Shown: piece by piece, positions 9,454-61,552 of the stretch
How the letters are laid out: each line of letters begins with the position of its first letter
How positions within the stretch are numbered: the stretch's first letter is position 1
Virus record (IMG/VR): IMGVR_UViG_3300032323_003835
Location: 47,206 to 111,205 of that record
Reading direction: 5' to 3' (one strand)
Length of the DNA stretch: 64,000 bases
From: a virus
Notes under the pieces: generated by a model
What the model saw: only the letters and a program-made list of their open reading frames with translations
What the model was told of the DNA's origin: nothing
Databases searched by the model: none
Made by a program: the position numbers and the translations under genes

Positions 9454-10611
9454 TTAAATATCATCTAGTATACCCGCCTGTATTAAATCGGATACATTAT
9501 TTATAGATTTCTGGAATGTTTTATTGGTGTTTCTGCTAGTAATCTCTTTAATTACCCTCTGTTTTATGTGAACCGGAAGTCTGTCATAGATCTTTGTTAT
9601 CTTGATAGGGTCCTTAGAATAACTACCATAAATATAGTCAGATACATCCATATAATCTAAAAATCTACTTAGATGCTCTTGATCTCTGTAATCGATAAGA
9701 TCCCACGATAAAGCAATTGCAACATTGTAAGGTGTACCAGTAGAAACATCTTTAGCTAGTAGATTGAGTGTTTTTTCAGAAACTATATTACCAGATAAAA
9801 CCAAATTTTCTGGGTTCATTACGGGAAGTCCCTCTAAAGAATTTAAAAGATTCGAAGAGCAATTGAATCCAGATTCTACCGTTTGTGGGGATCCCTTAAG
9901 ATTTTCTAATAAATTATTATTACACACAAAATCACCGAGTACTATTGATGGGCCAAGATCAAGAGAGGATAAACTATTATTAGAGCATATAAACTTACCA
10001 TTTAGTTTATTGGGGGATCCTTTTAGGGTTTCAAGATTATTTTCTGAACAGTTGTACAGTTTTCCTACATTTTTTGGTCCTCCCACTAACGATGTTAATA
10101 GGTTGTTTTCGCATTGGAAAAACCCACCGACTTCTTTTGGAGATCCAATAAGGGATGTTAATTTATTAACAGTTACTCGATAATCCCCGTTGACTTTAAT
10201 TGGTCCTCCTTCTAGAGATGTTAATTCATTAAAATCTGCTATGAAATTTCCTGGTATCTCCTGAGTACATCCCTTTAATGTTTCTATCTCGTTGTACATA
10301 CAATCGAAATTTGACCCAACGATTATTGGGGAATATTTTAGGGATTTTAGTTTATTAGAAGAGCATCTGAATGATCCCCCAATCTCTTCTGGGCAATTTA
10401 TGAGGGATTCTAAATTATTATTGGAGCAATTAAAATTGCCGGTGATTTTTTTAATTCCTACTTTAGGTAAAGTTTTTTGTTCAGGTTTCAGACCGTTTGA
10501 ACAATCAAAATCCCCATCTATTAAAACTGAACCTTCATTGGTAAGGATCCAAGAACCTGATACAAATTTATTTAAAAATTCTATTAAAGATGAGGATAGC
10601 TTTTTTGACAT
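9454..10611 (-). CDS. Leucine-rich-repeat protein, untagged paralogue
   Basis: 385 residues. About ten 20-21-residue repeats of the form GxFxCxxNxLxSLxGxPxxV occupy roughly residues 50-265, giving a solenoid. Unlike its relatives at 24.6-29.3 kb it starts MSKKLSSSLIEFLNKF, has no N-terminal LFE tag, and lacks the ADLGELGF C-terminus. It ends instead in a helical domain. It still has the WILTNEGSVLIDGDF cap seen in the others. Likely protein-protein recognition; target unknown. Confidence 0.75.
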   Translation of the reverse strand: MSKKLSSSLIEFLNKFVSGSWILTNEGSVLIDGDFDCSNGLKPEQKTLPKVGIKKITGNFNCSNNNLESLINCPEEIGGSFRCSSNKLKSLKYSPIIVGSNFDCMYNEIETLKGCTQEIPGNFIADFNELTSLEGGPIKVNGDYRVTVNKLTSLIGSPKEVGGFFQCENNLLTSLVGGPKNVGKLYNCSENNLETLKGSPNKLNGKFICSNNSLSSLDLGPSIVLGDFVCNNNLLENLKGSPQTVESGFNCSSNLLNSLEGLPVMNPENLVLSGNIVSEKTLNLLAKDVSTGTPYNVAIALSWDLIDYRDQEHLSRFLDYMDVSDYIYGSYSKDPIKITKIYDRLPVHIKQRVIKEITSRNTNKTFQKSINNVSDLIQAGILDDI

Positions 10612-10615
10612 TCAT

Positions 10616-10894
10616 TTATCTATCAATAGATATTTTTTCAAATGGTATAATTGGACTCATTCCGGTTTCTCTAAAATATGTAGATCTTATTTTTTTACCG
10701 AGTTCCATGTCGTTTGGTGTATCTAGGATGACCCGATAATCTATCATGATGTGAGACCTTGAGGATCCTTGGTAACAAGGTGTGCATAATTGTCCTACCC
10801 CCTCTACGTATCCATATCTTATATCGATATGGTCAGATATGCTGTATTTTGTGAGGATCCCACATATAACACATTTTTCTTTACCTGAATTCAT
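10616..10894 (-). CDS. Small zinc-ribbon protein
   Basis: 92 residues. CVICGI near residue 8 and CTPCYQ near residue 37 form a CxxC...CxxC zinc site. The rest (VILDTPNDMELGKKIRSTYFRETG) is helical. No named family. It lies 4 bases upstream of the repeat-protein gene and downstream of bS21. Confidence 0.6.
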   Translation of the reverse strand: MNSGKEKCVICGILTKYSISDHIDIRYGYVEGVGQLCTPCYQGSSRSHIMIDYRVILDTPNDMELGKKIRSTYFRETGMSPIIPFEKISIDR

Positions 10895-10912: not shown

Positions 10913-11107
10913 TTATTCATTAGATGTATTGATCATCCTCTGTTTATAGATGGCATCTAGAACTTCCTTTCTTCGGGTAACTGAGGGTTTTGTGTAGCTC
11001 TGTCTTTCCCTTAGTTGATTGATAAGCTTAGTTTTAGATACCTTGTTCTTATAAACCTTTAGAGCCTGATCTATAGATCCGTACTTTGTTGCGTCTATTA
11101 TAATCAT
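10913..11107 (-). CDS. rpsU: 30S ribosomal protein bS21 homologue
   Basis: 64 residues, the usual bS21 length. The pattern MIIID...SIDQALKVYKNKVSKTKLINQLRERQSYTKPSVTRRKEVLDAIYKQR matches bS21 along its length: the SID.ALK..K.K start, the central LR.R..Y.KPS and the basic RR.. helix. bS21 sits near the 3' end of 16S rRNA and influences anti-Shine-Dalgarno access. Phage copies are known and are thought to enter host ribosomes to favour phage mRNA. Here that could serve the phage's non-Shine-Dalgarno and near-leaderless messages (inference). Confidence 0.85.
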   Translation of the reverse strand: MIIIDATKYGSIDQALKVYKNKVSKTKLINQLRERQSYTKPSVTRRKEVLDAIYKQRMINTSNE

Positions 11108-11156
11108 AACATAATATCTATCCCTAAATAAATAAAAAGTTCCAAAACAGCAATAT

Positions 11157-11615
11157 CTAATTTTTATTATTTTCGGAAGGAATCCAATAGTTAAAATAAA
11201 AATCTCGGATAAAGTCTAGGGTTATATTTCCGCTCAGGAATCTATCCCTAAGCCCAAAATCCCTAAAGTTGATAACATTCCCGTTTATTAGGAATTTATA
11301 AAGAGGTTTAATTTGCTCTAGATCGTCTCTTTCGTTTAACGAGATTATTTCAGTGGATGTAAATTGTAAAAGGTCCCGGTTGTTTAGGAGTAATCTAAAT
11401 TTAGTAGTAGTTGTTGTTCCCTCTTTGAAGACTCTGGCTGACAAGTATACTGGTTTAATATGCCTTTTATCAAGATCAAATATATCTATAGCGGTATCCC
11501 CTAGATCCTTTATGTCCCGGCGATCTTTTATCTCGCCAATCCATTTAACATATTCATCGTTTGAACAATCATATATCATTGTTTCACATTGGCTTAACAC
11601 TGTCTCCTTTATCAT
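11157..11615 (-). CDS. Uncharacterised protein
   Basis: 152 residues, soluble, no domain recognised (MIKETVLSQCETMIYDCSNDEYVKWIGEIKDRRD at the start, YFNYWIPSENN at the end). The start overlaps the carbamoyltransferase stop by 4 bases, so it is cotranslated with that enzyme. Confidence 0.55.
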   Translation of the reverse strand: MIKETVLSQCETMIYDCSNDEYVKWIGEIKDRRDIKDLGDTAIDIFDLDKRHIKPVYLSARVFKEGTTTTTKFRLLLNNRDLLQFTSTEIISLNERDDLEQIKPLYKFLINGNVINFRDFGLRDRFLSGNITLDFIRDFYFNYWIPSENNKN

Positions 11616-13291
11616 TTTTTTGAAATTAAATAATTACCTAAAACTAAGAAATCCATTTCGGAATCTAAAAATCTTATTATAGCATCTTTCGGATATAGCG
11701 TTATAGTTTGGTCCTTGAAATTGAAAGATGTGTTAAGTAATATTGGGTATCCTGATAATTCTCCAAAAGTTTTTAATAAACGATAGAATCTTGGATTTTC
11801 GTACGATGTTACAGTCTGAACTCTTGCTGTTCCATCCACGTGTGTTATTGCAGGTAAATCCCACTCTTCTTTAACCTTTACTACCATATTCATATACGGA
11901 ATGGACGATTCTGTTTCAAAAAATTTAGATGCTTCATCGAGGGTGACTGAGGGAGCGAAGGGCCTAAACATCTCCCTTTTCTTTATCACCGAATTTATTC
12001 TATCCTGCATGTGAGGATAGAGTGGTGAAGCTAGAATAGATCTATTTCCAAGTGCTCTGGCTCCAAACTCCATTTTACCCTGAAACCATCCTATAACATT
12101 TCCTTCGTTAAGAAGATTGGAACACTTGAAAATAAGATCTGTTGGATCCATATGATCGTAATTAATTCTATCTCCGAAATTTTTAAAGGATGCTTCTATT
12201 TCTTCTCTATCAAATGAAGGTCCCTGATACGCATCAAACGGTCCCTTTCTCTTCCATTCTTTTACTACGTTTATATAATGGAGACATGCTCCTATAGCGG
12301 ATCCCCCGTCGGACGGAGATAAAGGAACCCAGACGTTTTCATAATTTGATGAGGAGGATATTTTAGAATTTGCTACACCATTATAAGCGCATCCTCCGCC
12401 CAGACACAAATTACTAGTGTTATTAAGCTCGTAGCTAAACTTTATCACCTCAATCAATATTTCTTCATATATCTTCTGAACAGAGGCAGCTATGTGCTTG
12501 TGATGAGCTTCTATGGCATCATTAGAGAATCTTGGGTGGATATTAAGAAGAATAGATAGGTTCTCGTTAAACATTATTCTGTCCGAATAATTCCACGAGA
12601 AATATTTCATATTTACCCTGATTTTACCATTATCATAGGCTATGGTTTTTTTGATGGCATCATAATAGACGGAGGGATCACCATAAGAGGCCAATCCCAT
12701 TACCTTGTATTCTCCTTCGTTGGGCCTAAATCCAAGAAAGGCGGTAAATGCAGAATAAAAAAGCCCGAGGGAGTGCGGGTAATTTATCGAATGTAATTTA
12801 GTTATCCTATTTTTGGTTGCTTTAGAAATAGTAACTGTTTCCTTTTCACCAACGCCATCGACGGTTACTATATTACATTCCGAAAAATTAGACGTGAAGT
12901 ATGCTAAAGACGCGTGGGATAGGTGATGATCTACGAAATAGATTTTTTTAGAAAATCCCAGTTCGTCCAATAAAACGTCTTCCACTGATTTCTTTTTTCC
13001 GCTAAAGATGTAATCTACAATTCTTCTAAAATTTTTGATTGGATTCTTTCTGAAGGTTTCGATTACCCTCTCTCTTTTCTTTATGGGGTTTTCGTACCAA
13101 CAAACTACACTTATATCTTTTGCGGATATTCTATTGGATTTTAGTAGCCATTTAATAGTTTCCTTAGGGAATGAGCTATCACCCTTAACCCCGGTGAATC
13201 TTTCCTCCTCTGCTGCTCCCAGCAAGGTATTATTCCTATATAAACATGCTGCAGAATCGTGGTAAAATGCAGAGATTCCAAGTATATACAT
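11612..13291 (-). CDS. O-carbamoyltransferase (NodU/CmcH/TobZ family)
   Basis: 559 residues, typical family length. N-terminal ASKA-fold motifs: ILGISAFYHDSAACL, then VDHHLSHASLAYFTS with the conserved histidines, then VTVDGVGE. The nucleotide-binding region has CLGGGCAYNGVANSKI and the YrdC-like C-terminus contains FGARALGNRSIL. Family enzymes move a carbamoyl group from carbamoyl phosphate via carbamoyl-adenylate onto a hydroxyl, usually of a sugar. A sugar acceptor fits the nearby FkbM, sulfotransferase and epimerase genes; a modified nucleotide is an alternative. Confidence 0.9.
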   Translation of the reverse strand: MYILGISAFYHDSAACLYRNNTLLGAAEEERFTGVKGDSSFPKETIKWLLKSNRISAKDISVVCWYENPIKKRERVIETFRKNPIKNFRRIVDYIFSGKKKSVEDVLLDELGFSKKIYFVDHHLSHASLAYFTSNFSECNIVTVDGVGEKETVTISKATKNRITKLHSINYPHSLGLFYSAFTAFLGFRPNEGEYKVMGLASYGDPSVYYDAIKKTIAYDNGKIRVNMKYFSWNYSDRIMFNENLSILLNIHPRFSNDAIEAHHKHIAASVQKIYEEILIEVIKFSYELNNTSNLCLGGGCAYNGVANSKISSSSNYENVWVPLSPSDGGSAIGACLHYINVVKEWKRKGPFDAYQGPSFDREEIEASFKNFGDRINYDHMDPTDLIFKCSNLLNEGNVIGWFQGKMEFGARALGNRSILASPLYPHMQDRINSVIKKREMFRPFAPSVTLDEASKFFETESSIPYMNMVVKVKEEWDLPAITHVDGTARVQTVTSYENPRFYRLLKTFGELSGYPILLNTSFNFKDQTITLYPKDAIIRFLDSEMDFLVLGNYLISKK

Positions 13292-13312: not shown

Positions 13313-13519
13313 CTAGGAATCTAGATGTTTCCATCTGTCCTTGTTTACTATTGCAGAAATGCTTCTTCTTGACATCCCAAATTTTTCTGCCAATTGAATC
13401 ATAGTAACAGATCCAGATTTATAAATTTTTCTGATTTCCTGAACCTCTGATTCAGTGAGCTTAGAATTTGGATTCTTTTCCCCACTTAAAAAGGGATTGA
13501 TTGATTTTTCTTCTTTCAT
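13313..13519 (-). CDS. Small helix-turn-helix protein
   Basis: 68 residues. GEKNPNSKLTESEVQEIRKIYKSG followed by TMIQLAEKFGMSRRSISAIVN is the helix-turn-helix module often attached to phage HNH endonucleases, here freestanding. Either a small regulator or a remnant of such an endonuclease. The late-type box ends only 5 bases before the ATG. Confidence 0.65.
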   Translation of the reverse strand: MKEEKSINPFLSGEKNPNSKLTESEVQEIRKIYKSGSVTMIQLAEKFGMSRRSISAIVNKDRWKHLDS

Positions 13520-13524
13520 ATCCC

Positions 13525-13533
13525 TTATATATC
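13525..13533 (-). promoter_or_regulatory. Late-type promoter box
   Basis: GATATATAA on the minus strand, 5 bases before the ATG at 13519, implying an almost leaderless message. Confidence 0.65.
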
Positions 13534-14486: not shown

Positions 14487-15407
14487 TTAAACCATATTTT
14501 TAGCTAGCATATCATCTCTGAAAGCAGTTGATTTTGCTAGGGTTTCTTGGAATATAGGCTTACTTAAATCGTTACCTAATCCGGCGTTAACGTGAAAGAC
14601 AGCTTTGAGAGCTGCATCTTTATTCGGAAATTCATTAGGATCATTTGATCCGTACAGGGATTTAACTTTAGGGTTTTTTAAATTCTCTATAAAATAAAGT
14701 ACTGCAACTTCTGCTGCAACATCTAGCTCGTTTAAGGCATCGGGATTGGTAACAAAGTTTATTGACCTTCCAAGTTTTCCATTTTCGTTATAGATCTTTT
14801 GCATTTTTTCATATCCGGCTTTAAAAGTAATTCCATTGAATCCTATTCCCGCATATTTTGATCCATCACCTGGTTGGGTGTTTCCCATTTTTTGAGAAGC
14901 CCCTGTAGGATCATCTGGACCATAAACCCTATCCCAAAATTTAGAAGGATCAGCTTTTAATGTATTAAGCTCAGCGTCAGTTAAAGTGGCGACTCTTTTA
15001 CCAAAGATTTTTCTGATTCTGTCATTACTAGTATTAGTATAAGGAACCTCATTCTGTGGTGCCCAACCGCACTCTTTACCGATAACACCCTGAATGGATG
15101 CTCTCATATTTTTATCGGTAATTCCGTGTCTGTCCATTGCCTTGTTTACTTCCTCTACGCCCTTTTTAACATCCTCCGCGGAAGGAACTTTAGCACCGCT
15201 TCCTTGTAATCTTTCGCCCCATGATGTACCACCACCTTCAGGATCATCCCCTAAGAAATCACCAAATCCTGCTCCTTTGATTATTTCTGCAGCCTTTTTT
15301 AATTGGTCTATCATTGTAGCACCCGACCCAGTAGGATCTTTCATTGGGTCTTCTTTTTTTACTTCCTGCTCATTTATAAAGCCTGAAAATTGTTTTAGGT
15401 ATTTCAT
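14487..15407 (-). CDS. Tagged GH19-type lysozyme
   Basis: 306 residues. N-terminal tag MKYLKQFSGFINE, then a linker containing DPTGSGAT. The catalytic part (about residues 100-300) shows GVIGKECGW (catalytic Glu region), KDPSKFWDRVYG and GDGSKYAGIGFNGITFKAGYEKM, the counterpart of the GDGW+YRGRGxxQLTGxxNY signature of glycoside hydrolase 19 endolysins. It should cleave the peptidoglycan glycan strand. The tag suggests virion packaging rather than a plain lysis enzyme (inference). Confidence 0.75.
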   Translation of the reverse strand: MKYLKQFSGFINEQEVKKEDPMKDPTGSGATMIDQLKKAAEIIKGAGFGDFLGDDPEGGGTSWGERLQGSGAKVPSAEDVKKGVEEVNKAMDRHGITDKNMRASIQGVIGKECGWAPQNEVPYTNTSNDRIRKIFGKRVATLTDAELNTLKADPSKFWDRVYGPDDPTGASQKMGNTQPGDGSKYAGIGFNGITFKAGYEKMQKIYNENGKLGRSINFVTNPDALNELDVAAEVAVLYFIENLKNPKVKSLYGSNDPNEFPNKDAALKAVFHVNAGLGNDLSKPIFQETLAKSTAFRDDMLAKNMV

Positions 15408-17088: not shown

Positions 17089-17634
17089 TTAGGAATAATA
17101 CAATTCCGGATATTCAACTATAACGTGGATGCCTCCTTTATTATAGACATCTTTATAAATTGATTCAATAGATTCCCATCCAGAAAGATCCCAGAATTTG
17201 ATATTAGGACACATGGATCTGAATTCGCTGAAATAATTTCCTCTGTGCTGATGTCCCGGATCTAATGGTTTATCTGATCCTTTTCCCAATCGTATAATCA
17301 TATTCGGATTCCACTTTCCTTGGCTCATCAATCCTATCTTATCAACATGATTAACTAGTTGATTCGTTGCGCATATTAAAAAATCCCATCTTGGATAAAA
17401 CGTGATTACAAAATTTCCAGTCATCGCCATTCCTAAAGACATTCCCATTTGGGATTCTTCCATTACAGGAACTTCGATCAGCTTATCTTTTGGTACGTCC
17501 CCGATAGTGGTACTCATCGGATTGCCGTGCCACAATACTTGTTGCCCGATGAATACAGTATCTTCTTTATCGGCAAGAAATTTCATGGATGCTGTTAGTG
17601 CATCTTTATAAGGGGTGTATTGGGGTTGTGCCAT
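17089..17634 (-). CDS. ThDP-dependent enzyme, pyrimidine-binding half
   Basis: 181 residues. FIGQQVLWHGN, then IEVPVMEESQMGMSLGMAMTG with the catalytic-type Glu, and PRWDFLICATNQLVNHVDKIG, typical of the pyrimidine-binding domain of transketolase/E1-beta. It is about half the length of a full E1-beta chain: the C-terminal domain is absent. It works with 17796..18428, which supplies the other half. Confidence 0.75.
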   Translation of the reverse strand: MAQPQYTPYKDALTASMKFLADKEDTVFIGQQVLWHGNPMSTTIGDVPKDKLIEVPVMEESQMGMSLGMAMTGNFVITFYPRWDFLICATNQLVNHVDKIGLMSQGKWNPNMIIRLGKGSDKPLDPGHQHRGNYFSEFRSMCPNIKFWDLSGWESIESIYKDVYNKGGIHVIVEYPELYYS

Positions 17635-17795: not shown

Positions 17796-18428
17796 TTAAA
17801 AAACTACCCATTTACCAGTTCCGTAATGGGGCCATTCTTTTTCATATTCATACCAGATAACATCTTCTGGGATTTCTCTTTTGGTTCCTCCCCAGGTTTC
17901 TATTGTTGGAGTATTGGTTGAAACGTGATTGTCTTCAACTACAAACACTATTGGAAGATTTAAATTTTTAGCATACTTGTGCATCTCATAAAATCCTCCA
18001 GTTTCGAAAGCCATATCCCCAATAAAACACCAAACTTTATCTTTGCGATTTTCCCTCTTATTAGAAAGAGCAACCCCTGTTGCTATCGGAATTATAGCTC
18101 CCACTATAGCAGACGCATAAAATCTTTCTTCCTGACTTACTATTGTGATAGATCTTCCTGCTATAATTTCTTCTTCTAGCCAAACCGGACATACTCCTTT
18201 AATTAGAGCATGATAATGTGATCTCCACGTGGAAAAAACCCAATCGGTTGGTCTAATCCTTCTTCCGATTTCAATTAATTGATCCTCATTTCCACCGCTT
18301 AAATGTACCGGTCCTTTGATTTTTCCCGCTTCCCAGTGGTCTGCGATTAATCTCTCAAACTTTGATAAATCCTCTTTGGTGTATATGGGATCAGTAACAA
18401 CCGGGTATTTGTCTAAATTCTTTATCAT
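17796..18428 (-). CDS. ThDP-dependent enzyme, pyrophosphate-binding half
   Basis: 210 residues. The ThDP motif is present as CFIGDMAFETGGFYEMHKYAKNLNLPIVFVVEDNHVS (GD..E, then E-x-N). VFSTWRSHYHALIKGV and GAIIPIATGVALSN match E1-alpha/transketolase N-terminal domains. Together with the pyrimidine-domain gene it would form a minimal two-gene ThDP enzyme, likely transferring a two-carbon unit or decarboxylating a keto acid during unusual sugar synthesis. Confidence 0.8.
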   Translation of the reverse strand: MIKNLDKYPVVTDPIYTKEDLSKFERLIADHWEAGKIKGPVHLSGGNEDQLIEIGRRIRPTDWVFSTWRSHYHALIKGVCPVWLEEEIIAGRSITIVSQEERFYASAIVGAIIPIATGVALSNKRENRKDKVWCFIGDMAFETGGFYEMHKYAKNLNLPIVFVVEDNHVSTNTPTIETWGGTKREIPEDVIWYEYEKEWPHYGTGKWVVF

Positions 18429-20608: not shown

Positions 20609-20842
20609 TTATTCTTCTTCGGTCTCTCCTTCTTCCTCTTCAGCTTCTTCAGCTTCATAATCATAAGGATCGTACTCAGCTTTAAATTCAGCTTCTTCCT
20701 CTTCTGGAGTTTCTTCCTCGAAATCTTCTGCGTATGACGGAGATGGACCTTCATTAGGATCTACCAGATTGTCAGCATCATACATGAATTGTGTCTCCTC
20801 TTTTACGTCGTCCCAACTTTCGAATAATTTAATGTGTTTCAT
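20609..20842 (-). CDS. Tagged, extremely acidic small protein
   Basis: 77 residues. Starts with the shared tag MKHIKLFESWDD, then FMYDADNLVDPNEGPSPSYAEDF and a C-terminal tail that is nearly all Glu (EEEEAEFKAE, EAEEAEEEEGE). If cleaved after LFE the mature peptide would be a strong polyanion, comparable in charge to DNA-mimic or packaging peptides (inference). The promoter is weak: a CATATAAAAA segment near 20856. A terminator follows. Confidence 0.7.
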   Translation of the reverse strand: MKHIKLFESWDDVKEETQFMYDADNLVDPNEGPSPSYAEDFEEETPEEEEAEFKAEYDPYDYEAEEAEEEEGETEEE

Positions 20843-24584: not shown

Positions 24585-25715
24585 TTAAAATCCAAGCTCA
24601 CCTAGATCTGCAAGGGTTGAAGCCGCGTCTCCAATTCTCTTGGAAACAGCATCAAATGCCTCCGGATAATTTTTCTTAAGCAGAATCATCGCTTCTGGGG
24701 TAAGATATTTGGCATCAATATTCGATGCTCTATCTAAAATAAACGGACCAAAAAGATTAGGATGCACACTTAAACCCTCCAGCCATCCTTCAAAATTCCA
24801 TTTCTTTATTTCGAAGGTATCCATCTTTTTTGGCCAATCTGGTGCATATTCGAACTTTCCCCCTATTTTTAAAGGTGCCCCAAATAATGAGGTAAGTTTT
24901 GAGCCGATAAAAAATCTTCCGCCAACCCTTAGAGGTGATCCTTCTAATGAATATAGGTTACTTCCTGTGCAAAGAAATTCTCTTCCAACATCCAAAGGTC
25001 CTCCTTTTAGTGAGGTAAGTTTATCATTACCGTATAATCTAAATGATGCTCCTACCTTCTCAGGAGATCCTTCTAATGAGGTAAGTCCTATATCCATGGC
25101 CACAAAATCATGGAGAATCTCACCAAACTTAACTCCTCTAAATCCAAGATTGGTTCCTTGTGCTTCAAAATTTCCTAGAACGTCAATTTTTCCGGTTGTT
25201 TCGTTGATCCTCCATGTTTTCTTTGATGATTTATCCAGCCAATTAACTATGGATGGTGTAAGATTATATTTTTTATAAAGATCACCAAGAGGATCATCAA
25301 TCCCTGTTCTATCCAAAATCTCTTCCCTAATTTTTGGAAGTTCATCCAGATATTTTATCATCTCCGGGTTGTTCTTCATAAGGGTATCTAAATCATCAAT
25401 GGATACCTGGGTAATTCCTTTTTTAATAAATCTAGTAATCACATACCCTAACATTTTGGGCATTGGATTTTCCAATTGATATTGATAAACATAACCTTGA
25501 CTAGATGTTCTCACATATCCAGCTGAAGTAATTCTAAGTTTTACCCCGGAGTATGGACTATGTATTGTAAGGGTTCCGTTTTTATTGATGTCATAAATTT
25601 CAAAACCCATTAGCCTTAGAAATTTCCATTCGGGAAGATCTTGCCATGCACCAGCCCAGTCCTCTACTGTAACAATTTTAGATTCAAATATTTTAAAATT
25701 CTTTAGATGCTTCAT
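24585..25715 (-). CDS. Tagged leucine-rich-repeat protein, array member 3
   Basis: 376 residues from the ATG at 25715 (MKHLKNFKIFESK); an in-frame start 27 bases upstream is less likely because the tag begins at 25715. After the I-F-E tag comes a ~190-residue unique domain, the WRINETTGKIDVLGNF cap, only about four repeats (LTSLEGSPEKVGASF, LTSLKGGPLDVGREF and so on), then the conserved tail ending ADLGELGF. Fewer repeats than its neighbours, consistent with expansion and contraction of the array. Confidence 0.8.
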   Translation of the reverse strand: MKHLKNFKIFESKIVTVEDWAGAWQDLPEWKFLRLMGFEIYDINKNGTLTIHSPYSGVKLRITSAGYVRTSSQGYVYQYQLENPMPKMLGYVITRFIKKGITQVSIDDLDTLMKNNPEMIKYLDELPKIREEILDRTGIDDPLGDLYKKYNLTPSIVNWLDKSSKKTWRINETTGKIDVLGNFEAQGTNLGFRGVKFGEILHDFVAMDIGLTSLEGSPEKVGASFRLYGNDKLTSLKGGPLDVGREFLCTGSNLYSLEGSPLRVGGRFFIGSKLTSLFGAPLKIGGKFEYAPDWPKKMDTFEIKKWNFEGWLEGLSVHPNLFGPFILDRASNIDAKYLTPEAMILLKKNYPEAFDAVSKRIGDAASTLADLGELGF

Positions 25716-25719
25716 ACCT

Positions 25720-26142
25720 TTATCTTTTTCCTTCGAGAACAACCTTTAGTCCATTGTTTCTGTCGATGTACATCCATTCACATGAAATGAGACCAAATTG
25801 GTCAAAATGATCTAGCACCTCGTCAGCTGAAAATTGTGAACATGAATAAATGTCAAATTGGAAGAAAGCAGGATCTTTGGCATCCCAAACGTGGATGGCT
25901 GCATGTGAAGTAGCTAATGTAACAGTACCTGTGATACCTTCGTTACCTGGTTCATTCACGTAAACCGAGGTTGGTCCGGCAACAACTACCATTCTAACTC
26001 TTTCGACTAGATCTTTTAGCCACTGGTTTAAAACCTCTTCCTCTCTGGGAGGATTTTGAATATGACCTCTAACTAGGAGGTGGAGGTGATTGGGAACGAA
26101 CCCCGCTAATGTTTCTTTTTCTGTATGTGTATTCTCTTGCAT
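25720..26142 (-). CDS. AdoMet-decarboxylase-like (SpeD family) protein
   Basis: 140 residues, SpeD-like size. VTLATSHAAIHVWDAKDPAFFQFDIYSCSQFSADEVLDHF parallels the SpeD core, in which the Ser of ESH becomes the pyruvoyl cofactor; here the residue before Ser-His is Thr, not Glu. An NHLHLLVRGHI segment precedes it. If active it makes decarboxylated AdoMet for polyamines, which can neutralise packaged DNA. It sits inside the repeat-protein array behind its own late-type box. Confidence 0.65.
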   Translation of the reverse strand: MQENTHTEKETLAGFVPNHLHLLVRGHIQNPPREEEVLNQWLKDLVERVRMVVVAGPTSVYVNEPGNEGITGTVTLATSHAAIHVWDAKDPAFFQFDIYSCSQFSADEVLDHFDQFGLISCEWMYIDRNNGLKVVLEGKR

Positions 26143-26147
26143 GGATC

Positions 26148-26157
26148 TATATATTTA
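26148..26157 (-). promoter_or_regulatory. Late-type promoter box overlapping a stop codon
   Basis: AAATATATAG on the minus strand. It shares its first bases with the TAA stop of the upstream repeat gene and ends 5 bases before the ATG at 26142. Confidence 0.6.
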
Positions 26158-27387
26158 AAATCCTAACTCTCCTAAATCTGCAAGAGTTGAAGCACCGTCT
26201 CCAATTTTCTTGGAAACAATATTGAATCCCTCCGGAGAATTTTTTTTAAGCATAATCATTATTTCTGGAGTAATAAATGGTCTAAGATCTTTGACATCTA
26301 TCTCTTGTACCCTATCTAAAAGGAATTCGCTAAAAAGCCTTGGACTTATTCTGAAACTATCAATCCATCCCTTTAAATTCCATTTAATTCTATTTATGTG
26401 ATTATCATAACCAAAAAGTCCACCAATCTTCAGAGGTGCTCCCTCCATGGAGTCAAATGGATTTCCATGACAAGCAAAATTACCTTCAACCTCCAGCGGT
26501 GCTCCTTCTAGGGAGGTAAGTAGATTATTACTACAATGAAAACCCCCACCTATCTTCTGCGGAGATCCTTTTAGAGAAACGAGTTTATTGTTATAGCAAT
26601 TAAAATCACCACCAACACTCTGTGGTGCTCCTTCTAGAGACGTAAGTTTATTTCCCGAACAATCAAATTTCCCACCAACCTCTGTTGGTGATCCCGCTAA
26701 AGAGGTAATTTTATTGTTATGGCAATCAAAATCCCAACCTACCTCTTGAGGTGCTCCCGTCAGGGAAGTAAGTTGATTTCCCCCACAATCAAAATGCCTT
26801 CCTATCCTCCGAGGTGCTCCTACTAGGGATGTAAGACGATTACGAGAACAATCAAAAAACCCTTCAACCTCCAGCGGTGCTCCCTCTAGAGAGGTAAGTT
26901 CATTATCAGAACAATAGAAAGTACCCCCGACCTCTTGCGGTGATCCTTTTAGAGAAGCGAGTTTATTGTTATAGCAATTAAAATCACCACCAACACTCTG
27001 TGGTGCTCCCTCTAGAGAAATTAGTTTATTACTGTAACAATGAAAGTTCCCACCAACCTTCCGCGGTGCTCCGTTTAACGAAGTAAGTTTATTATCGTTA
27101 CAGACAAAATTCCCTCCTACCTCTTGGGGTGCTCCTTTTAGAGAGGTAAGATTGTTTACGATATCAAAAACAATAAAATCACCAGTCACCACTCCAAAGG
27201 AAACAGGCAGCACTTTTTTCTTACTATCCGAGATCATAAAGTCACCATCAACATCAATTAGTCCAGTTTGCGGATTTAAAGACCATGTACCTGTACCCGA
27301 ATGGGTTCCCATATTCAGAAAAGACCTCTGTGACGGGGTTAAGTCGGAAGCAGATTCAAACAAGGAAAATTTCTTTAGATATTTCAT
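26155..27387 (-). CDS. Tagged leucine-rich-repeat protein, array member 2
   Basis: 410 residues. Tag MKYLKKFSLFESA, cap WSLNPQTGLIDVDGDFMI, then about 11-12 repeats of exactly 21 residues (consensus GGxFxCxxNxLTSLxGAPxxV) from about residue 78 to 322, then the conserved tail LKKNSPEGFNIVSKKIGDGAS and ADLGELGF. Leucine-rich solenoids mediate protein binding. The tag and late-type promoter suggest a virion-internal protein. The repeated Cys and Asn positions form the usual ladder. Confidence 0.85.
   Translation of the reverse strand: MKYLKKFSLFESASDLTPSQRSFLNMGTHSGTGTWSLNPQTGLIDVDGDFMISDSKKKVLPVSFGVVTGDFIVFDIVNNLTSLKGAPQEVGGNFVCNDNKLTSLNGAPRKVGGNFHCYSNKLISLEGAPQSVGGDFNCYNNKLASLKGSPQEVGGTFYCSDNELTSLEGAPLEVEGFFDCSRNRLTSLVGAPRRIGRHFDCGGNQLTSLTGAPQEVGWDFDCHNNKITSLAGSPTEVGGKFDCSGNKLTSLEGAPQSVGGDFNCYNNKLVSLKGSPQKIGGGFHCSNNLLTSLEGAPLEVEGNFACHGNPFDSMEGAPLKIGGLFGYDNHINRIKWNLKGWIDSFRISPRLFSEFLLDRVQEIDVKDLRPFITPEIMIMLKKNSPEGFNIVSKKIGDGASTLADLGELGF
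26421..27180 (-). repeat. 63-bp coding tandem repeats
   Basis: About twelve 63-bp units within the repeat gene. Two units (near 26560 and 26940) are almost identical over the stretch encoding GGDFNCYNNK, indicating recent internal duplication. Confidence 0.75.
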
Positions 27388-28103: not shown

Positions 28104-29258
28104 TTAAAATCCTAGATCACCTAGGTCTGCAGCGGTGGTAGCTCCTTCCCCAAATCTCTTAGCCAGAATCTTAAAGGTCTCTGGTAATTTTTTTCTGATG
28201 ATATTAAGGTCTTCCGGAGAGAGATCTCTAGGATCTATTTTTTCCGCCATGTTTGCAATAAAAGGTAAAAAAAGATCTGGGTCTTGCTCCATTCCCTGTA
28301 GCCAACCTTTTATATTCCATTTAATATCCGAAAAACGAGGGTGATATGAAAAATTACCTCCGATTCTCATCGGTGCACCCTCTAGAGAGGTAAGCGGATT
28401 GTATACACAGAGAAAATTTCTTCCGACCTCGATCGGCGCTCCTTCTAGAGAAGTGAGCTCGTTACTTTCACAACTAAAATTATCACTAACACCCTGTGGT
28501 GATCCTATTAAAGAGGTAAGATTATTTCTATCACAACGAAAATAAGGTCTAATTCCCTGTGGTGCTCCTACTAGGGATGTAAGACGATTACTACTACAAT
28601 CAAAACCACCCCCGATCTTAGAAGGTATTCCCTCCAGAGAGGTAAGCTCGTTGTTGCCACAATCGAAACCCCCTCCTACATCCTGTGGTGCTCCCTCTAA
28701 GGAGGTAAGTTGATTAGTATAACATATAAAATCGCCACCAACACTCGGGGGTGCTCCTGCTAGAGACGTAAGTTTATTTCCCGAACAATCAAATACCCCA
28801 CCAACCTCTGTTGGGGATCCCGCTAAAGAGGTAATTTTATTTTCCCGACATCTAAAATTCCCTCCTACATTCTGAGGTGCTCCTGTCAGAGAAGTAAGTT
28901 CATTTCCCCCACAATCAAAATTCCCTCCTATCCTCCGAGGTGCTCCCTCTAGAGAGGTAAGACGGATAACCCTACAAATAAAATTTCCTCCAACCTCTTG
29001 GGGAGCTCCTTTTAGGGAGGTGAAACTGTTTTTATATTGTTTAAAAGCAAAATTTCCCGACACAACACCAAATGAAACTGGCAGTAATGTTCTGGTAGTT
29101 TCACCAACACTAAAATCTCCATCAACGTCAATCAGACCGGTTTGAGAATTTAATGACCAGGTTCCACCACTTTGGGTTCCTTTGTTTAGGAAAGCTATCT
29201 GAGGGACGGATAGTTTGAAAGAGGATTCAAATAAGGAAAATTTCTTTAGATATTTCAC
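28104..29258 (-). CDS. Tagged leucine-rich-repeat protein, array member 1
   Basis: 384 residues, GTG start at 29258. Tag MKYLKKFSLFESS is nearly identical to that of 26155..27387, as is the cap WSLNSQTGLIDVDGDF. About ten 21-residue repeats follow (roughly residues 80-300), then a tail ending ADLGDLGF. A diverged tandem duplicate of member 2, with repeat order and surface residues changed. Confidence 0.85.
   Translation of the reverse strand: MKYLKKFSLFESSFKLSVPQIAFLNKGTQSGGTWSLNSQTGLIDVDGDFSVGETTRTLLPVSFGVVSGNFAFKQYKNSFTSLKGAPQEVGGNFICRVIRLTSLEGAPRRIGGNFDCGGNELTSLTGAPQNVGGNFRCRENKITSLAGSPTEVGGVFDCSGNKLTSLAGAPPSVGGDFICYTNQLTSLEGAPQDVGGGFDCGNNELTSLEGIPSKIGGGFDCSSNRLTSLVGAPQGIRPYFRCDRNNLTSLIGSPQGVSDNFSCESNELTSLEGAPIEVGRNFLCVYNPLTSLEGAPMRIGGNFSYHPRFSDIKWNIKGWLQGMEQDPDLFLPFIANMAEKIDPRDLSPEDLNIIRKKLPETFKILAKRFGEGATTAADLGDLGF
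28358..28991 (-). repeat. 63-bp coding tandem repeats
   Basis: About ten 63-bp units, each encoding GGxFxCxxNxLTSLxGAPxxV with variable x positions. Confidence 0.75.
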
Positions 29259-29930: not shown

Positions 29931-29939
29931 TTATATATC
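29931..29939 (-). promoter_or_regulatory. Late-type promoter box
   Basis: GATATATAA on the minus strand, 4 bases before the ATG at 29926. Confidence 0.65.
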
Positions 29940-47166: not shown

Positions 47167-47337
47167 TTATGCTCCTTCATTATCTTTTACTGCTTTCTCT
47201 TTGGTTTGTTTCACCGGACGAGTAGCTTCTTTCCAAACACTTTTTGGAACGAATTTGTATCCACGATTCTTAACCATCAATTCAGCTTCGTCATCATTTA
47301 CTCTTCTGATATCATTTGCCTTTTGTACCGTCTTCAT
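47167..47337 (-). CDS. 56-residue basic protein
   Basis: ATG at 47337. MKTVQKANDIRRVNDDEAEL then MVKNRGYKFVPKSVWKEATRPVKQTKEKA. The GYKFVPKSVWKE segment is typical of small phage zinc-free adaptor proteins; function unknown. Overlaps the preceding membrane-protein gene by 26 bases in another frame. Confidence 0.6.
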   Translation of the reverse strand: MKTVQKANDIRRVNDDEAELMVKNRGYKFVPKSVWKEATRPVKQTKEKAVKDNEGA

Positions 47338-61543: not shown

Positions 61544-61552
61544 GATATATAA
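61544..61552 (+). promoter_or_regulatory. Late-type promoter box
   Basis: GATATATAA on the plus strand, 18 bases before the ATG at 61571. Confidence 0.65.

Follow-up and report, generated by a model that had tools for sequence, protein, structure and literature searches.

The window, a stretch of 64,000 nucleotides, spans positions 47206–111205 of a linear virus record of 111,205 bp (G000), a fragment without the terminase gene (TerL). It harbors an rpsU-like gene for ribosomal protein bS21 on the minus strand, running from an ATG at 11107 to a stop codon at 10913; frame 1 of the plus strand of 10913–11107 is interrupted by stops. The preliminary description of this DNA gave the interval correctly but without a strand, which is hereby set to minus. 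The translated ORF is a 64-aa protein, MIIIDATKYGSIDQALKVYKNKVSKTKLINQLRERQSYTKPSVTRRKEVLDAIYKQRMINTSNE, which matches over the full domain both Pfam PF01165 (Ribosomal_S21; E 2.3e-13, 50.1 bits against a cut-off of 27) and NCBIfam TIGR00030 (S21p; 38.4 bits against 28.95), above the curated cut-offs of the bS21 family. It also matches phrog_21469, “ribosomal protein S21”, and a profile built from it and its phage relatives gives an ungapped alignment with the Flavobacterium johnsoniae ribosomal chain 7JIL_z over residues 1–62. These matches bear out the earlier claim of a full-length bS21; the annotation is confirmed, and the gene is real. It is the only S21 gene in the whole 111,205-bp record.

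A lysis and surface-modification locus

The genes around bS21 lie on the same strand and begin, in a presumed transcription unit, with a 68-aa helix-turn-helix-like protein (HTH68, 13313–13519). The promoter-like motif GATATATAA (13525–13533, minus strand) ends 5 nt before this gene. The unit continues with a NodU-like carbamoyltransferase (11612–13291) and a 152-aa protein to which no function is assigned (11157–11615), followed by bS21, a 92-aa CxxC…CxxC protein (10616–10894), and a 385-aa leucine-rich-like repeat protein (9454–10611). This order is conserved in related contigs in which the identity of bS21 ranges from 93% to 56%, including the two genes downstream; L006 and L127-type relatives lack the 152-aa gene at this position, and the gap between it and bS21 is wider in L244. 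More distant relatives of the carbamoyltransferase (about 50%) occur without the bS21 block. An endolysin-like protein (phrog_181; 14487–15407, minus strand) marks a late or lysis neighborhood, and an FkbM methyltransferase, an epimerase, and two ORFs of a TPP-dependent enzyme are also found near bS21, which thus sits inside a lysis and surface-modification block. Structural genes were not recognized among the neighbors of the window bS21. The TPP-dependent enzyme (phrog_34187) is split across ORFs 17089–17634 and 17796–18428, both of which are conserved in relatives. The leucine-rich-like repeat protein is one of four paralogs in the window (9454–10611, 24585–25742, 26155–27387, and 28104–29258).

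This setting differs from that of the Bacteroidetes myoviruses of Chen 2022 (clades a–e; PMC9723584), in which bS21 is found within the terminase–portal–protease–capsid region, at most about five genes from these genes and on the opposite strand. The two groups are otherwise alike, in that both are large phages that encode a Tyr54 bS21 diverging in helix 1 and clustering apart from cellular proteins, and the same mechanism is proposed for both. Unlike the Chen 2022 phages, the window phage has its bS21 surrounded by genes for a carbamoyltransferase, an endolysin, and surface modification in the same orientation. In a sister record of 244,850 bp (G001), TerL is about 100 kb from bS21, whereas in a contrast group of three genomes (G002–G004) the two genes are about 3.5 to 4.5 kb apart and on opposite strands, as in Chen 2022. 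On the basis of this difference, the window phage appears to represent a lineage of its own, with a new type of bS21 locus.

Conserved residues and descent

In the 7JIL-based alignment, the window bS21 carries Tyr54, the residue associated with sequestration of the anti-Shine–Dalgarno sequence (ASD) in Bacteroidia, and of 90 distinct phage sequences, 82 have an aromatic residue there. According to McNutt 2023 (PMC9976891), Tyr54 of F. johnsoniae bS21 stacks on A1534 and helps to hide the ASD, and either Y54A substitution or loss of bS21 increases translation of the SD-bearing rpsU. The preliminary description had set bS21 beside the 3′ end of 16S rRNA; this placement next to the ASD follows from the homology of the phage protein to the 7JIL chain. 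The C-terminal half of phage bS21 is, like Tyr54, highly conserved. The first helix, in contrast to that of cellular proteins, harbors the changes K/R18 to V, R/K21 to N, F/Y23 to V, and E10 to G, at sites where almost every cellular protein sampled has a basic or aromatic residue. Divergence of phage bS21 in this helix has been described by Chen 2022, with positions 21, 23, 25, and 28 named (PMC9723584).

The phylogenetic comparison with host rpsU that had been suggested earlier sets the phage genes apart as a clade of their own. A total of 49 phage bS21 sequences fall into one clade (SH-aLRT 96) adjoining Chitinophagales rpsU (81), in a weakly resolved tree of 152 sequences and 64 columns whose members were picked by similarity to the window protein rather than as a sample of all phages. 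Given this separate clade, the tree does not support a recent capture from a host. The best 80 genome matches to the window bS21 are all from Bacteroidota, with the exception of one record titled only “uncultured bacterium”, and the protein has relatives in several hundred viral contigs or more. Strong purifying selection acts on the gene; dN/dS is approximately 0.03–0.09 in comparisons with members of the lineage whose synonymous sites are unsaturated, several dS values in the remaining comparisons being saturated.

Tyr54, the SD-less genes, and the position of Chitinophagales as nearest cellular relatives support a Bacteroidota-type assignment of the window bS21. The host can be placed as Bacteroidota but not to order, and its rpsU may or may not carry the SD-based loop described below. 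A search of the wider record for T9SS or other Bacteroidota secretion-domain markers as proof of the host returned none, and only one FISUMP domain is present there. Matches to designed PPR proteins in the PDB were dismissed as repeat artefacts.

Leaders, promoter-like motifs, and other translation genes

AGGAG or GGAGG is found in the SD window of none of the 94 phage genes of at least 110 aa; the non-SD leaders of the preliminary description therefore hold genome-wide. The leaders of these genes are A-rich, with A favored at −3. This pattern of A-rich, SD-less leaders with A at −3 agrees with that known for Bacteroidota. A known exception is the host Bacteroidia rpsU, in which an extended SD leads to autoregulation: as described in McNutt 2023 (PMC9976891), it is translated via this SD by bS21-less ribosomes. 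The host and phage genes encode the same protein family with the same ASD-sequestering residue, but the phage gene does not have that SD. McNutt 2023 takes up phage bS21, but no phage leaders are examined in the portions available (PMC9976891).

Leaders were compared by how strongly their final 25 nt pair with the 16S tail, at a threshold of −8 kcal/mol or lower and a stricter one of −13. The window bS21 leader (11108–11147, minus strand) pairs weakly (ΔG −5.1 kcal/mol) and has neither the extended SD nor the strong 16S pairing of an autoregulated rpsU. Counted as distinct proteins, which are not independent events (the 90 distinct phage proteins form 37 clusters at 75% identity), only 1 of 82 phage leaders with an aromatic residue 54 reaches −8 kcal/mol, a strong SD being missing in the other 81, as compared with 25 of 29 leaders in Chitinophagales, the nearest cellular group, and 51 of 79 in the nearest Bacteroidota. 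For Flavobacteriales, 5/25 leaders pass versus 0/52 phage leaders (Fisher p 0.003), but a rank test finds no significant difference (p 0.11); the SD contrast is thus carried chiefly by the nearest Bacteroidota groups. At −13 kcal/mol, 4/79 nearest cellular, 4/25 Flavobacteriales, and 0/82 phage leaders remain; because few leaders of either group pass, the contrast depends on both threshold and group. The small fraction of sampled Flavobacteriales that pass at −8 further implies that the rpsU loop is not universal in hosts. In addition, SD-less leaders are the default for the genes of this phage, and the absence of an SD before bS21 therefore need not be selected.

The sole strong SD among the 82 aromatic-54 leaders, AAAGGAGG, belongs to a 735-kb phage (L252, LR756501) with Tyr54. 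It is one of the records LR7565xx/LR745206 (634–735 kb), presumably the huge phages of Al-Shayeb 2020, whose S21 proteins are 42–54% identical to the window bS21. The window leader, with no SD, differs from that of the 735-kb phage, and the protein differs as well: the bS21 of the Al-Shayeb 2020 huge phages has an N-terminal extension (PMC7162821), whereas the window bS21 is short and without extension. In the other group of bS21 phages (L012–L025 type contigs), the 40 nt ahead of bS21 hold a conserved TATATTTG box and a TATACTTAT element close to the ATG.

The motif GATATATAA occurs at 12 sites in the window against 1.5 expected, for example at 13525–13533, 29931–29939, and 61544–61552. Across the 111-kb record, the end of RATATATAA is 3–5 nt from the ATG in 8 genes and 12–19 nt in 9 genes, and these distance classes make near-leaderless late mRNAs plausible in this phage. 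In G001, a tail tube gene is preceded by an exact copy whose end is 8 nt from the ATG, and the tail sheath gene by a near copy. The same element, in the form GAATATATAAC, precedes the tmRNA gene in both G000 and G001 at an identical distance of 24 nt, which supports a promoter role independently of ORF calling. The near-leaderless late mRNAs proposed in the preliminary description are thus in keeping with the first distance class but do not clearly extend to bS21, whose own leader has no significant match (best 2.4 bits against 7.0, the 95% point of shuffled leaders); a late promoter directly before the window bS21 was accordingly dropped. Among relatives, L125 has the motif before bS21 (10.0) and L006 comes near (6.6). 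The copy at 13525–13533 may drive the unit that includes bS21.

Other translation genes accompany bS21 in these phages. The tmRNA of G000 (C1:41-423 of L034, outside the window) scores 87.7 bits in Rfam against a gathering threshold of 47 and encodes the tag DNELSTMTFEDAMSFVGADYAVAA; that of G001 is at L358:342-766, and the long tag peptides of the two differ. A tRNA-Met (L358:773-847) directly follows the tmRNA in G001 and, judged by eye, is of the initiator type on the basis of its C1:A72 mismatch and GGG/CCC anticodon stem. The same first tRNA bases are present in G000 (minus strand of L034, bases 1 to about 33), where the gene is cut by the contig end. tmRNAs have been reported in huge phages (Al-Shayeb 2020, PMC7162821).

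Proposed role of the phage bS21 and a recurrent start peptide

The kind of gene and the specialization of ribosomes by phage bS21 have already been published or proposed (Chen 2022, PMC9723584; Al-Shayeb 2020, PMC7162821; Mizuno 2019, PMC6375957). What is new here is the locus type in another viral lineage and the observation on the leaders. Bacteroidota ribosomes are a rare case in which composition, the presence or absence of bS21, is known to alter mRNA choice, and phages that supply their own bS21 constitute a natural experiment on this switch.

The best explanation, which taken as a whole has about an even chance of being correct, is that the phage bS21 enters the 30S subunit, hides the ASD, and both escapes and lowers the host rpsU loop. 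The protein would most likely occupy the normal bS21 site of host 30S subunits, where Tyr54 would keep the 16S 3′ tail sequestered, such that ribosomes would stay in the SD-less initiation mode used by the phage genes. Its mRNA, having no extended SD, would be translated by ordinary bS21-filled ribosomes and so escape the self-limiting loop. As phage bS21, probably made late, fills the remaining ribosome sites, translation of host rpsU should drop. The replaced helix-1 residues may add a preference for phage mRNAs, and it is possible that the phage favors its own mRNAs through bS21. The leader comparison affords a testable prediction beyond a general redirection of ribosomes, namely that host rpsU falls when phage bS21 is made. 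A more far-reaching form of this proposal is rather doubtful: because host rpsU needs bS21-less ribosomes, it would be silenced once the SD-free, Tyr54 phage bS21 fills the ribosomes and hides the ASD, the pool would turn over to the phage version, and bS21, the initiator tRNA, and the tmRNA would together form a small initiation-and-rescue kit.

In the model of Chen 2022, phage bS21 replaces its host counterpart and the altered helix 1 picks phage over host mRNAs late in infection. The changed basic and aromatic sites (18, 21, 23, and 10) are consistent with such a role, as is the published late expression, bS21 transcripts of Bacteroidetes phages being abundant in late-stage infections (PMC9723584). 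However, Bacteroidota host mRNAs are also SD-less, so no evident signal marks those of the phage, and the near-leaderless class comprises only part of the motif-bearing genes, with bS21 not clearly among them; the model is accordingly considered somewhat unlikely for this phage. The same helix-1 replacements, consistent across phages and unlike hosts, are more than would be predicted if the phage simply replenished a ribosomal protein that is exchangeable and limiting, so that ribosomes stay complete during infection with unchanged specificity. The conserved C-terminal half and Tyr54 would fit plain supply, as would the tmRNA and initiator-type tRNA, other general ribosome-serving genes of the same phage, yet this account is improbable.

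It is more improbable still that phage bS21 inhibits translation in the host or has an extraribosomal role, such as RNA binding or virion packaging. The bS21 of Pelagibacter phage HTVC008M became incorporated into E. coli 70S ribosomes and left them about 5% active in vitro (PMC6375957). The literature search returned no other in vitro assay of a phage bS21; this one was performed across species with a distant host, and the protein, although likewise phage-encoded, was acquired from the Pelagibacter host and is of the alphaproteobacterial rather than the Bacteroidia Tyr54 type (PMC6375957). In addition, the purifying selection and the conservation of Tyr54 are in keeping with binding to the ribosome. 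A passenger gene without function, for which nothing speaks beyond its small size, is scarcely credible given the low dN/dS, the conserved synteny, and the many viral contigs with relatives, and was already disfavored.

Many otherwise different proteins of the window start with MK(H/Y)(I/L)K-(F/Y)E-like peptides. Their ORFs have a start or end at 20609, 20881, 22394, 26155, 28104, 29270, 36225, 56534, 56960, 59392, and 61571, among others. The peptide may serve to target these proteins to the virion or prohead.
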